This document shows, piece by piece, positions 2,634 through 4,795 of a stretch of DNA of 43,207 nucleotides. Source of the DNA: Dehalococcoidia bacterium (GTDB lineage Bacteria > Chloroflexota > Dehalococcoidia > Tepidiformales > Tepidiformaceae); assembly GCA_022826585.1 (NCBI GenBank), contig JAJDUR010000017.1:1-43207 (forward strand), read 5' to 3'. Under the pieces are notes generated by a model that did no database searches, was not told the DNA's origin, and was given only the letters and a program-made list of their open reading frames with translations. The first letter of the stretch is position 1; each line of letters begins with the position of its first letter. A program made the translations under genes and the position numbers.

Positions 2634-3095
2634 ATGGCCGAACTCTCCCCCGAAGAGATCCTCAAGGAAGCGCTGCGCGTAGCCGACTCCCAGTTCGGCG
2701 GCACCCTCGCCACCATCCACGCCGATGACGGCACCCCCTACCCCGCCTTCGTCCTGTTCCATCTCACCCACGAAGGCGAGGTCATCTACGGCAGCGTGAT
2801 CGAGTCCCAGCACACCCGCGACACGGAGTCCATCCCCGAGGTCGCCTTCCTCATCGACAACCGCGACGTGCTCGGTTACGACTGGCCCGCCTTCGACCGC
2901 GTCACCATCGAGGGGACGGCCGAACGCATCGACCCCGACGACCCCCGCTACGACGGCTACTTCAGCGAGCTCGTGGCCAAGAACTGGCTCTCGAACTACT
3001 TCACCAAGATCGGGAATCTCTACTGCATCGCCCCGAGGCGCATCACGGTCGTCCTCGGCCTCGGCCCCGAACGCCACACGCTCGACTTCGATTAG
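2634..3095 (+). CDS. Pyridoxamine 5'-phosphate oxidase-fold (PPOX) flavoprotein
   Basis: A 153-residue protein of the PPOX split-barrel class. FGGTLATIHADDGTPYPAFV is the typical first strand pair, GSVIESQHTRD is where FMN phosphate or substrate contacts usually occur, and VTIEGTAERI is the central strand. Members bind FMN, F420 or haem and act as small oxidoreductases or haem-utilisation proteins; the cofactor cannot be settled here. The ATG directly abuts the TAG of the HNH gene, so the two are probably translated from one message. Its stop overlaps the convergent BKACE stop by four bases. Confidence 0.8.
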   Translation: MAELSPEEILKEALRVADSQFGGTLATIHADDGTPYPAFVLFHLTHEGEVIYGSVIESQHTRDTESIPEVAFLIDNRDVLGYDWPAFDRVTIEGTAERIDPDDPRYDGYFSELVAKNWLSNYFTKIGNLYCIAPRRITVVLGLGPERHTLDFD

Positions 3096-3991
3096 CGGCC
3101 CGGAATCCCCAGCAGCGCCGCCGCCTCGTCCGGCGTCGCGGGACGCTTCCCCGCGCGCTCGATGACCTCAAGCAACCCCCGCATCAGTTCCAGGTTCGAG
3201 GGCTCGCCCGGTCCCGCGTAGTCCTCGAGGCCGATGCGCACGTGGCCGCCCCGCGAGATTGCGAGCGCCGCCATGCCGCAGGCCGTCACGTCGCCGGCGC
3301 GCACCGCCACCGACCACGGCAGCCCCGTCCCCTCGAGCATGTCGAGGTACGCCTCGAGTCCGGCAGGCGTGGGCGGCAGGCCCGAGAGCGTCCGCTCGCT
3401 GCCGAAGTAGAACTTGACCAGCGACCCCGGTGGCAGCGTGCCCGCCTCGTGCTCCGCCAGCGCCACCCGCAGGAACCCCGGCTCGAAGATGGAGATCGAG
3501 GGCCCGAGGTCGTAACGGTGGCAGGTGTCGAACATCTTCCGCGCGTCCCGGAACGTGTTCAGGTAGGTCGCCTCGATGTCCGCCGCCCGCCCGTCCGGCC
3601 CCCGCCCCCCGACGTTCACTGACCCCGGGTCCACGAGCCCGATCCGGAGCACGCCCGCCTCCGCCAGCGCCGGGATGTGGGCGTAGCGGCGCTTGAACGT
3701 CGTGTGCGGACCCCCACTCGGCATTGTCGGGTACAGCAGCGCGTCCGGGCGCTCCGCCAGAATGACGCTCCAGGCTTCGAGGTAGGGCGCGGGGTCGTGT
3801 TCGGGGGCATCTCCCACGACCGGCTCGTCGTTGTGGTTGTGGACGATCGCCGCTCCCTCCTCAAGGCAGCGCAGCCCGTCTTCCGCGATCTCCGCCGGCG
3901 TCCGTGGCACCGTCGCGTTCCGCGACTTCGGCGTCCCCCCGTTAATCGCCGCCTCGATGATCACCGCATCGCTCAACTCAGCACTCGACAT
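3092..3991 (-). CDS. Beta-keto acid cleavage enzyme (BKACE, DUF849)
   Basis: A 299-residue TIM-barrel enzyme of the BKACE family, whose founder is 3-keto-5-aminohexanoate cleavage enzyme of lysine fermentation. Family members use zinc to condense or cleave a beta-keto acid with acetyl-CoA. Visible family features are AINGGTPK at the N-terminus, the zinc ligands His51 and His53 in VHNHND, and a late glutamate in RIGLEDYAG that normally completes the zinc site. The specific keto acid cannot be predicted. It lies downstream of a nitroreductase and directly follows a striking hairpin array. AGGAG in the last linker of that array is about 10 bases before the ATG and is its likely ribosome-binding site. 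Confidence 0.9.
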   Translation of the reverse strand: MSSAELSDAVIIEAAINGGTPKSRNATVPRTPAEIAEDGLRCLEEGAAIVHNHNDEPVVGDAPEHDPAPYLEAWSVILAERPDALLYPTMPSGGPHTTFKRRYAHIPALAEAGVLRIGLVDPGSVNVGGRGPDGRAADIEATYLNTFRDARKMFDTCHRYDLGPSISIFEPGFLRVALAEHEAGTLPPGSLVKFYFGSERTLSGLPPTPAGLEAYLDMLEGTGLPWSVAVRAGDVTACGMAALAISRGGHVRIGLEDYAGPGEPSNLELMRGLLEVIERAGKRPATPDEAAALLGIPGR

Positions 3992-4120
3992 CCCTGTAGC
4001 TCCTACTCAGCGGCGCCCCGCGCCGCGCTCTCCTCAGGCGGGCTGAGCCCGCCGCTCTCCTCAGCGAAGCGCGCAGCGCGAGCGCTCCACTCAGCCGCGC
4101 GTCAGCGCGGCGCTCTCCTA
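3992..4120 (-). repeat. Tandem array of four hairpins separated by a Shine-Dalgarno-like linker
   Basis: This fills the gap between the nitroreductase stop and the BKACE start. On the minus strand a linker close to CTGAGGAGAGCG recurs between four palindromes, with a period of about 27-30 bases. Plus-strand stems are 4010-4026 (7 bp, loop CCC), 4037-4053 (7 bp, loop TGA) and 4094-4111 (7 bp, loop GTCA). About 4064-4086 forms AGCG and CGCG stems closed by CTG, with an internal loop. The stem sequences differ completely yet three of the four pair perfectly, which implies selection on structure. Every linker carries GGAG, AGGAG or GAGGAG, and the last one serves the BKACE ATG. Confidence 0.8.
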
Positions 4121-4795
4121 TCCCAGCCAGCGATCCTGCCAGCCCTCGTCCGGCTGCTCCTCCGCGAACGGCCACGTCTTCCCGAAGCGCTCCCGGTACA
4201 CGACCGCCTTCACCGGCTTGCGCCGCACCGGACCGTGCCGGTCCGTCGGGTAGCCGATCGGGAGCAGGCAGTAGAGCTGGTTGTTCTCGGGAATGTCGAG
4301 CAGCTCCAGCAGCTCGTCGCCGCCCCGCATGGGCAGGTTGAAGACCGAGCAGCCCAGCCCCAGCCCGCGCGCCGACAGCATCAGGTTCTGCACCGCGGGA
4401 AAGGTGCTGCCGCCCGGCGTCGAGTGCCGCCCCTTCAGCCCCAGCACCGCGATGACCGCCGGGGCCTCGTGCAGGTGCGCGACCAGGTGCTCCACGCTCC
4501 GCAACGTCAGCCGCTGCGTGCGCGGCAGGTCATCGATCTTCTCCGGGTGCTCTGCGAAGTCCGGCTGGTAGCGTCGCCACCCCACCTCCGCCCAGCCCTG
4601 CAGCTTCTCCTTCACCGCCGGATCCGTGATCACGATGAAGCGCCAGTCCTGCGCGTTCTGACCGGAGGGCGCGCGGATGGCGGCGTCGAAGAGCTGGAAC
4701 AGCACTTCCTCCGGGATGGGGTCGGGGCGGAAACGCCGCAACGCCCGCATGGAGTAGATCGATTCGAAGAGCCCGGGATCGCCTTCTGCCGGCAT
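4118..4795 (-). CDS. Nitroreductase family protein
   Basis: A 225-residue FMN-dependent nitroreductase. It opens with the family signature SMRALRRFRPDPIPEE, an FMN-phosphate contact region, followed by IRAPSGQNAQDWRFIVI. GLGLGCSVFNLP and the C-terminal LLPIGYPTDRHGPVRRKP are also typical. These enzymes reduce nitro groups, quinones or flavins with NAD(P)H. LPIGYP is common in those acting on coenzyme-like substrates, but the substrate is unknown. GGAGG lies five bases before the ATG and a TAGAAT box lies just upstream. Its TAG stop overlaps the first AGGAG of the hairpin array, and BKACE follows in the same direction. Confidence 0.9.
   Translation of the reverse strand: MPAEGDPGLFESIYSMRALRRFRPDPIPEEVLFQLFDAAIRAPSGQNAQDWRFIVITDPAVKEKLQGWAEVGWRRYQPDFAEHPEKIDDLPRTQRLTLRSVEHLVAHLHEAPAVIAVLGLKGRHSTPGGSTFPAVQNLMLSARGLGLGCSVFNLPMRGGDELLELLDIPENNQLYCLLPIGYPTDRHGPVRRKPVKAVVYRERFGKTWPFAEEQPDEGWQDRWLG

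Follow-up and report, generated by a model that had tools for sequence, protein, structure and literature searches.

The array of four hairpins that separates a nitroreductase gene from a BKACE gene in this Dehalococcoidia genome is, judged by genome comparison, one copy of a genus-wide dispersed repeat family that resembles mobile DNA, with constant linkers and differing stems. Its copies are dispersed, are present in one species and absent from close relatives, lie mostly in sense orientation at gene ends, and share recognisable linkers while their stems differ. We consider a genus-specific, non-autonomous mobile hairpin repeat of REP/BIME-like kind to be the best explanation, taken as a whole with its mechanism, with a probability of about 0.6. 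The REP-like mobile reading is well supported; the manner of movement and any RNA role at 3' ends are inferred.

Architecture of the array in the window

The window (the whole stretch of DNA analysed, 43,207 nt) carries the array on its minus strand from 4120 to 4000. Here four hairpins alternate with near-constant linkers, three with perfect 7-bp stems and one with a 4+4-bp stem and an internal loop, just as the earlier note had described. The order on the minus strand is TAG-GAGAGC-hairpin 1-TGAGTGGAGC-hairpin 2-TGAGGAGAGC-hairpin 3-TGAGGAGAGC-hairpin 4-TGAGTAGGAG, followed after 8 nt by the BKACE ATG. The array start reads TAGGAGAGCG, in which TAG is the nitroreductase stop, the internal linkers are CTGAGTGGAGCG (once) and CTGAGGAGAGCG (twice), and the array end reads CTGAGTAGGAG, with its GGAG 8 nt upstream of the BKACE ATG. 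The parts are given below with their matches to R1, a covariance model made from 28 units.

4118..4795, minus strand: nitroreductase gene (PF00881, domain match), upstream
4118..4120, minus strand: nitroreductase stop codon TAG, joined directly to a first linker that is partial (window sequence)
4112..4117, minus strand: first linker part GAGAGC; the TAG-GAGAGC junction recurs at many other arrays, in a list of array starts that misplaces the first unit in some rows
4094..4111, minus strand: hairpin 1, GCCGCGC-TGAC-GCGCGGC, loop TGAC; R1 match 4123-4084, 57.0 bits
4084..4093, minus strand: linker TGAGTGGAGC (window sequence)
4063..4086, minus strand: hairpin 2, AGCG-CTC-GCGC-TGC-GCGC-TT-CGCT (outer stem AGCG/CGCT, internal loop CTC/TT, inner stem GCGC/GCGC, loop TGC); B class, overlapping the linker ends, unmatched by R1
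4054..4063, minus strand: linker TGAGGAGAGC (window sequence)
4037..4053, minus strand: hairpin 3, GGCGGGC-TCA-GCCCGCC, loop TCA; R1 match 4065-4027, 56.5 bits
4027..4036, minus strand: linker TGAGGAGAGC, second copy (window sequence)
4010..4026, minus strand: hairpin 4, GCGGCGC-GGG-GCGCCGC, loop GGG; R1 matches 4026-4003, 23.5 bits, and 4038-4000, 49.2 bits
4000..4009, minus strand: terminal TGAGTAGGAG; GGAG at 4003-4000 is the apparent BKACE ribosome-binding site
3092..3991, minus strand: BKACE gene (PF05853, domain match), downstream

Tandem Repeats Finder did not report the window array, and within the window the linker with up to two mismatches occurs 15 times against 27 in shuffled sequences, which is no excess. 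The window by itself showing nothing, the non-randomness of the array rests on its clustering and on the genome-wide counts. Rfam has no family over the array; the scan of the window returned two tRNAs only, and every match over the array scored far under the gathering threshold. Between 3850 and 4250 no promoter- or terminator-like site was detected. TAGGAG stands on both sides of the window array, while the other arrays inspected have no such flanking repeat; no consistent target-site duplication was found at arrays, and no terminal inverted repeats were seen at array ends.

Distribution of the repeat family

Copies were sought in the window's own genome (G000), in its congeners (G001-G008) and, with the linker pattern, in 27 genomes from other genera of the family. 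The search for further copies of the linker with a variable palindrome, proposed in the earlier note, yielded many within the genus. The own genome holds 23 copies of the exact linker, the majority grouped with similar hairpins, and the pattern CTGAGKRGAGCG has 39 matches there against 3 for its reversed control. The same pattern has 40, 11, 9, 27, 1, 30, 28 and 1 matches in G001 to G008 (reversed controls 0-2) and 0-3 in each of the 27 genomes of the other genera. At E ≤ 0.5, R1 matched 62, 53, 24, 21, 56, 13, 46 and 55 times in G000 to G007, once in G008 and not at all in G009. At E ≤ 1e-4 it matched 8 of 393 genomes of the class, every one of them from the own genus (the own genome and seven congeners). 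A chance or purely local repeat is ruled out by the reversed-pattern control together with the unbiased pairing counts given below. We also observed that one genome from another family of the class (G038) has nine linker matches against none for the reversed pattern, and five weak R1 matches with a best E of 0.017.

Spread outside the genus was considered and rejected. Among 34 matching stretches, those from SAR324 and Actinocorallia resemble pentapeptide-repeat genes, and those from Hormoscilla, CSMAG_882, Bacteroidota and Oscillospiraceae lack variable hairpins, being coding sequence or repeats of fixed sequence (all judged by eye). The stretch from Hormoscilla sp. GUM202 (L084) holds a different tandem array, ATATATTCCTCCTTCCTGAGGAGAGCG, whose near-fixed units fit the linker pattern. 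A contig filed under Gemmatimonadetes (L093, JAJDVR010000240.1) shows the same rplL locus, with the array of the Dehalococcoidia genus, and is probably mis-binned. No copy was found in the viral contigs scanned. From some MAG names we suspect that the hosts of the genus are sponges.

No description of this hairpin-array family was found in the open-access literature searched, which mostly leaves subscription journals outside. Of the options raised in the earlier note it is the third, a mobile repeat family not described before, that genome comparison upheld, through the copies reported here and the empty sites reported below.

Anatomy of arrays and units

We examined 91 regions from genomes G000-G007, chosen among the matches listed, so that array numbers are lower bounds. 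These regions contain at least 97 arrays with two or more linkers, namely 20, 18, 4, 6, 16, 2, 16 and 15 in G000 to G007. At least two linkers with no more than two mismatches each were required, and 107 chains minus ten single-linker chains gave the 97. Flank clustering covers 98 arrays (the 97 and that of L093) and resulted in 34 flank clusters, one of which, with 18 arrays, merges several loci where neighbouring arrays share flanks.

The unit consists of NN-GAGC, a hairpin and CTGAG, and units are joined head to tail; in 233 internal units NN is GA (113), TG (73), AA (23), GG (14) or other (10). GAGC flanks the stem on its 5' side and TGAG follows the last C, a constancy that arises by construction, these letters having served to pick the units. 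Each strand was searched for chains separately, and in the arrays inspected no unit of opposite orientation lay between consecutive linkers. When units were picked by linker only, 93 distinct cores of 16-18 nt were obtained, which are Watson-Crick paired at 92.2% of 651 stem cells, compared with 65.3% (sd 1.5, maximum 70.0%) in 1000 arm swaps, and 57 of the 93 have a perfect 7-bp stem. The 120 units of 16-18 nt use 36 different 7-nt left arms, two of which account for 56 units. The 4-nt loop tips are partly constant: T occupies position 1 in 50 of 60 distinct 18-nt cores, and C occupies position 4 in as many. A second (B) class, which includes hairpin 2 of the window, usually has a CTC internal loop and a TGC tip (21 of 32) and a varying inner 5-bp stem. 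This inner stem is perfect in 28 of the 32 distinct units, with nine left arms, in a count that takes the best of two registers, while the linker-only count of 93 cores for the first class is unbiased. Array ends other than that of the window read TGAGTGGG or similar and have no U-tract.

Two further sequences were seen in the examined regions. A second repeat of approximate form CGCTCGACTGCTGCGCGCTCGCG, frequently preceded by ATTTCT, has 16 copies; 15 copies lie inside a same-strand array or at most 150 nt away from one, often nested in a hairpin (L116, L117, L120, L139, L142, L161, L166, L181, L185, L192, L196 and L203). CA-rich tracts of the CCACCAACCACCAGCCA type lie 3' of several arrays (for example G004:C4:8469, G000:C97:9175 and G003:C49:85388) and might be a separate repeat or Rho-site-like sequence.

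Placement relative to genes

Genes were called from the GC phase of ORFs, with no gene finder. Arrays with a 5' neighbour within 150 nt are sense to it in 65 cases and antisense in 12 (12 of 77 the wrong way). The array starts 2-8 nt after a sense stop in 48 of 97 cases, at exactly 2 nt in 29 of these, and overlaps the gene end (negative stop distance) in 7 further arrays; the distance is that to the nearest [GA]AGC[GA] after the stop, and orthologous arrays are not independent. For the 62 arrays with a sense 5' neighbour and both gaps within 1000 nt, the median 5' gap is 2 nt against a 3' gap of 173 nt (Wilcoxon p = 2e-8). Counted by flank cluster, 20 are sense, 4 antisense and 10 far (p = 0.0015), and in codirectional gaps 23 arrays are sense and 7 antisense. 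All 12 opposite-strand array pairs within 700 nt face each other 3' to 3', none being back to back, and most members are sense to their own gene. In two cases a tRNA gene of the same sense immediately precedes the array start, tRNA-SeC in G001 and tRNA-Gly in G003. Most R1 units lie between called genes, and some arrays adjoin a divergent gene at its start or at its -10-like box, or come after a further terminator-like hairpin (by eye). ARAGORN placed tRNA-SeC genes (anticodon tca) at 452-549 of L127 (G001) and 2439-2535 of L171 (G005), and an array is close to each.

Two more specific preferences were tried and rejected. TAG as a strict insertion target is contradicted by the background, in which TAG is likewise the commonest stop (197 of 326 ORFs; array genes 47 of 61; Fisher p = 0.014 on genes that are not independent), and by two species that retain TGA at the G004:C2 site. 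Enrichment at convergent gene ends was not significant (17 of the 51 array-bearing gaps are convergent, as are 63 of the 275 array-free ones, p = 0.11). Array-free ORFs in the G000-G007 regions end in TAG (197 of 326), TGA (106) or TAA (23); TAG as the commonest stop is unusual for a GC-rich bacterium.

Presence and absence at matched sites

At the nitroreductase-BKACE junction, five congeners (G001, G002, G003, G006 and G007) have no array and the two genes abut; their nitroreductase is three codons longer, with a stop that overlaps the BKACE start (read by eye), and a purine-rich stretch lies at the boundary. Because the genes abut without it in these five, with 82-91% identity around the site among the species compared, the window array is on this comparison a lineage-specific insertion, and its TAG, now the nitroreductase stop, is part of the new state. 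The array-free junctions have counterparts of the GGAG at the same place (GGAGG in G001, G003 and G007, GGAG in G002, GGGGGA in G006), so the GGAG is probably BKACE's own ribosome-binding site. The earlier note had taken the final linker copy for the apparent BKACE site, and its position 8 nt before the ATG stands. In the stretch seen, G005 has no adjacent BKACE, and G008 has no match to the window junction. In G004 this junction (C4, near 292525-293196, L065) holds another kind of insert, about 650 bp long and with an apparent ORF, and the junction may be an insertion hot spot.

Other sites likewise vary between species, the same unit being present or absent at orthologous positions as in a mobile element. 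One site has four hairpins in G002, three in G000 and a single one in G006, and is empty in G001, G003, G004 and G007; by eye, the array at this site would encode a new C-terminus. At G004:C2 an array is carried by G004, G001 and G006 and lacking from G000, G002, G003 and G007, and the G006:C7 site is empty in four species, all of which end in TAG at the array edge. There are three, three and one hairpins in G000, G006 and G003 at G000:C119. The G000:C25:90880 array is absent from six species, and that at G000:C25:89791 is shared by G001 and G006 and missing from G002, G003 and G004. At several loci (rplL, locus 2 and locus 5) arrays occur in 4-6 genomes, and five genomes of the genus have arrays with different stems at the rplL stop (gene named by eye). 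Against mobility alone, such multi-genome loci and the slower change of stems described below could mean selection for function.

In L246 (G000), L264 (G002) and L249/L252 (G006) an array replaces the last codons of a conserved gene (..YYTLVVE..). As read by eye, the first hairpin there would be translated as a new C-terminus, and related species keep another, array-free end.

How the stems stay paired

Pairing at matched loci, a check suggested by the earlier note, proved to be largely conserved. Over 72 unit pairs of at least 70% identity, which are not independent and some of which are paralogous, the share of differing positions is 12% in stems and 33% in loop tips. The stem differences comprise 38 changes from one Watson-Crick pair to another on both sides, 4 G-T, 15 A-C, 21 other mismatches and 3 that are neither. 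Where both sides have changed, most cases are flips from C-G to G-C, and G-T intermediates are few. G-T and A-C mismatches number 5 and 16 in one unit class, and 8 and 17 over two classes (p = 0.11). An antisense RNA, considered on the strength of the A-C excess in the one class (16 vs 5, p = 0.027), was dropped when the second class was included (17 vs 8). The RNA fold predicted for the window array has -76.6 kcal/mol and a z-score of -2.62 (antisense -1.54), with hairpin 2 pairing with hairpin 4 around hairpin 3; the four-hairpin ladder as naked RNA has -54.7 kcal/mol and is not the predicted minimum.

That different bases keep their pairing had been taken to point to selection for RNA structure. 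The pairing part of this claim stands (92% vs 65%). The part on selection does not, since sense-RNA selection should give a preference for G-T over A-C and there is none, so that on these sequences a selected RNA is not established and is not claimed. The slower change of stems than of loops is a point for some structural constraint. DNA-level processes, either template switching or module exchange, could give the same pairing pattern, and template switching can keep stems perfect in DNA according to the part of PMC8794818 available.

Comparison with known repeats

The usual marks of a REP-like palindrome are a terminal tag, a stem common to the family and a transposase of its own. A BIME comprises several palindromic REP units regularly spaced in one intergenic array, in alternating orientation. 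The hairpin family has in common with REPs that a short extragenic palindrome occurs in many copies, with 13-62 R1 matches per genome in eight genomes of the genus. As in a BIME, several palindromic units are regularly spaced in each intergenic array, and here a second repeat is nested in some hairpins; unlike a BIME, unit orientation is constant within an array, and only separate arrays face each other (12 gaps). Array hairpins also differ from intrinsic terminators, as no U-tract follows them.

The closest comparison is with the GTAG/CGTC-tagged REPs, which the available text of Di Nocera 2013 (PMC3733652) presents as short dispersed intergenic palindromes near gene 3' ends, often supplying TAG stops and sometimes lying inside ORFs, in families that include alternative complementary stem residues. 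GTAG repeats are reported there in Chloroflexi, with a GTAG-23 family in Thermomicrobium roseum. The hairpin arrays are similar in lying beside gene 3' ends and supplying TAG stops. They differ in that units have GAGC 5' and TGAG 3' in place of a GTAG or CGTC tag, GTAG appearing at array starts only where G happens to precede TAG, and in that no RAYT was found with them (PF01797, nine genomes). As to a REP stem consensus, 120 units here have the 36 left arms noted above, and REPs also occur with alternative stems (PMC3733652). A 2025 REP survey (PMC12306157) names Dehalococcoides mccartyi among Chloroflexota, and the portion available has no mention of this Dehalococcoidia genus.

Two organellar systems are also comparable. 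Yeast mitochondrial GC42 clusters are described, in the text available of PMC4478555, as mobile GC-rich palindromes with AG target nucleotides, sporadic presence, and merger and shuffling. Their loop positions change more than their stem positions, as at our matched loci, but they are organellar and have one consensus, whereas the hairpin family has many stems sharing linkers. Mitochondrial double and repetitive hairpin elements, including the sponge RHE (PMC2800124), are dispersed single and tandem hairpins, some of them GC-rich, in intergenic or genic positions; in these elements the stems are conserved and the loops change, and the part of that account available describes no stop-codon anchoring and shows no sequence relation to our repeats.

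Proposed mechanism

As a non-autonomous element, the repeat would be mobilised in trans as folded single-stranded DNA. Each unit would insert after AG, as a rule one that belongs to a stop context of TAG or TGAG, and would regenerate AG at its own 3' end (CTGAG) so that the next unit could insert behind it; repeated insertion would then build head-to-tail ladders outward from the stop codon. AG insertion and AG regeneration would jointly explain the head-to-tail order, the direction from stops and the constant linkers. If the machinery reads the linkers and the hairpin shape, stem sequence would be free to differ between units, and stem complementarity might be maintained through template switches that perfect a palindrome, or through arrays exchanging hairpin modules. 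In the window the insertion would have separated the tightly abutting nitroreductase and BKACE genes, providing a new stop for the former, while the latter kept the ribosome-binding site that it had. An effect at the RNA level would probably be secondary, with rigid structure past the stop shielding the 3' end or dampening read-through into BKACE.

Of 35 array starts whose choice did not depend on a linker, 28 have AG two bases ahead of GAGC, compared with 788 of 7726 such motifs (10%) in the same regions, arrays included. At linker-defined starts the figure is 59 of 62, which detection favours, and only the 28 of 35 are free of bias. By eye, AG is already at the boundary in four of six empty sites, namely the window junction (in four of five congeners), G002:C159, G006:C7 as in G002, and G000:C25:89791; it is not at, or unclear at, the boundary of G004:C2 and G000:C25:90880, and AG is a mere dinucleotide. 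The Y1 transposase (PF01797) is absent from 9 of 9 genomes of the genus, in a search for mobilising enzymes that covered PF01797 only; a control found it in 5 of 14 known genomes. On its absence from these nine genomes we rejected a RAYT-driven REP. We put forward only tentatively the fully specified version, a self-extending mobile hairpin in which units of about 28 nt would insert after AG at stops, regenerate the target and build oriented ladders one rung each, moved by a non-RAYT machinery that would read linkers and shape and not the stem, so that every rung may differ.

Alternative explanations

The array could instead be a selected RNA module of 3' ends, a post-stop ladder that terminates transcription or blocks 3' exonucleases or read-through and spreads as it is useful at gene ends. 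Sense orientation and placement at stop codons suit such a module, as do the 12 facing pairs with most members sense to their own gene, the arrays kept at one locus in several species despite differing stems, the slower change of stems than of loop tips at matched loci and the two array starts behind tRNA genes; hairpin clusters without U-tracts have moreover been proposed as terminators (PMC8355165, in the part available). It is harder to see why a useful module would number only 2-20 arrays per genome (at least, from the regions examined), have no R1 match at E ≤ 1e-4 outside the genus among the 393 class genomes, be gained or lost between close species, and sometimes sit beside a divergent gene start or behind another terminator-like hairpin (by eye). 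The stems show no G-T over A-C preference, there is no U-tract, the terminator scan of 3850-4250 finds none, and in the window the ladder is not the predicted minimum-energy fold. We regard this module as possible but rather unlikely. Stepwise covariation in an old structured RNA, with no mobility, would fit both-sided changes at 6 of 7 stem pairs, in a unit set selected for pairing and biased in that way, and the strong pairing of the unbiased set. It is disfavoured because empty alleles exist: sites are cleanly empty and unit numbers change between species that are 82-91% identical around the window site. Copies are moreover spread over 34 flank clusters, and the both-sided changes are flips with few G-T intermediates, and we consider it very unlikely.

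The suggestion of the earlier note that the array is a ladder of ribosome standby sites, with Shine-Dalgarno-like linkers regulating downstream translation, draws on the GGAG or GAGGAG within linkers and on the window GGAG 8 nt before the BKACE ATG. Across the family, however, arrays follow stops and do not precede starts: the nearest called downstream gene is on the opposite strand for 52 of 97 arrays (within 600 nt for 39 of the 52), and a sense start within 30 nt past the array end is found for only 9 of 97. Two arrays lie directly behind tRNA genes and the BKACE GGAG has counterparts in array-less congeners, which makes such a ladder highly improbable. Ordinary GC-rich sequence or an assembly artefact, to which the very GC-rich stems and the metagenome assemblies might lend colour, is refuted by 9-40 linker matches in the own genome and six congeners against 0-3 for the reversed control, and by the presence of the family in five MAGs with different accession prefixes (p16x63bins.9, IRC1_bin_31, IRC3_bin_22, APA_bin_86 and SB0661_bin_22), titled Dehalococcoidia or Chloroflexi.

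Implications

A mobile hairpin repeat of this kind, with conserved linkers, many stems, head-to-tail order, anchoring at stops and no Y1 transposase in nine genomes, offers a natural test of how short palindromic repeats spread without RAYT. At a locus with 0, 1, 3 and 4 rungs in related species, array growth is directly observable. The family equally puts to a natural test whether RNA selection or DNA-level palindrome repair gives rise to compensated stems, and strong covariation within a repeat family does not on its own prove that an RNA is functional.
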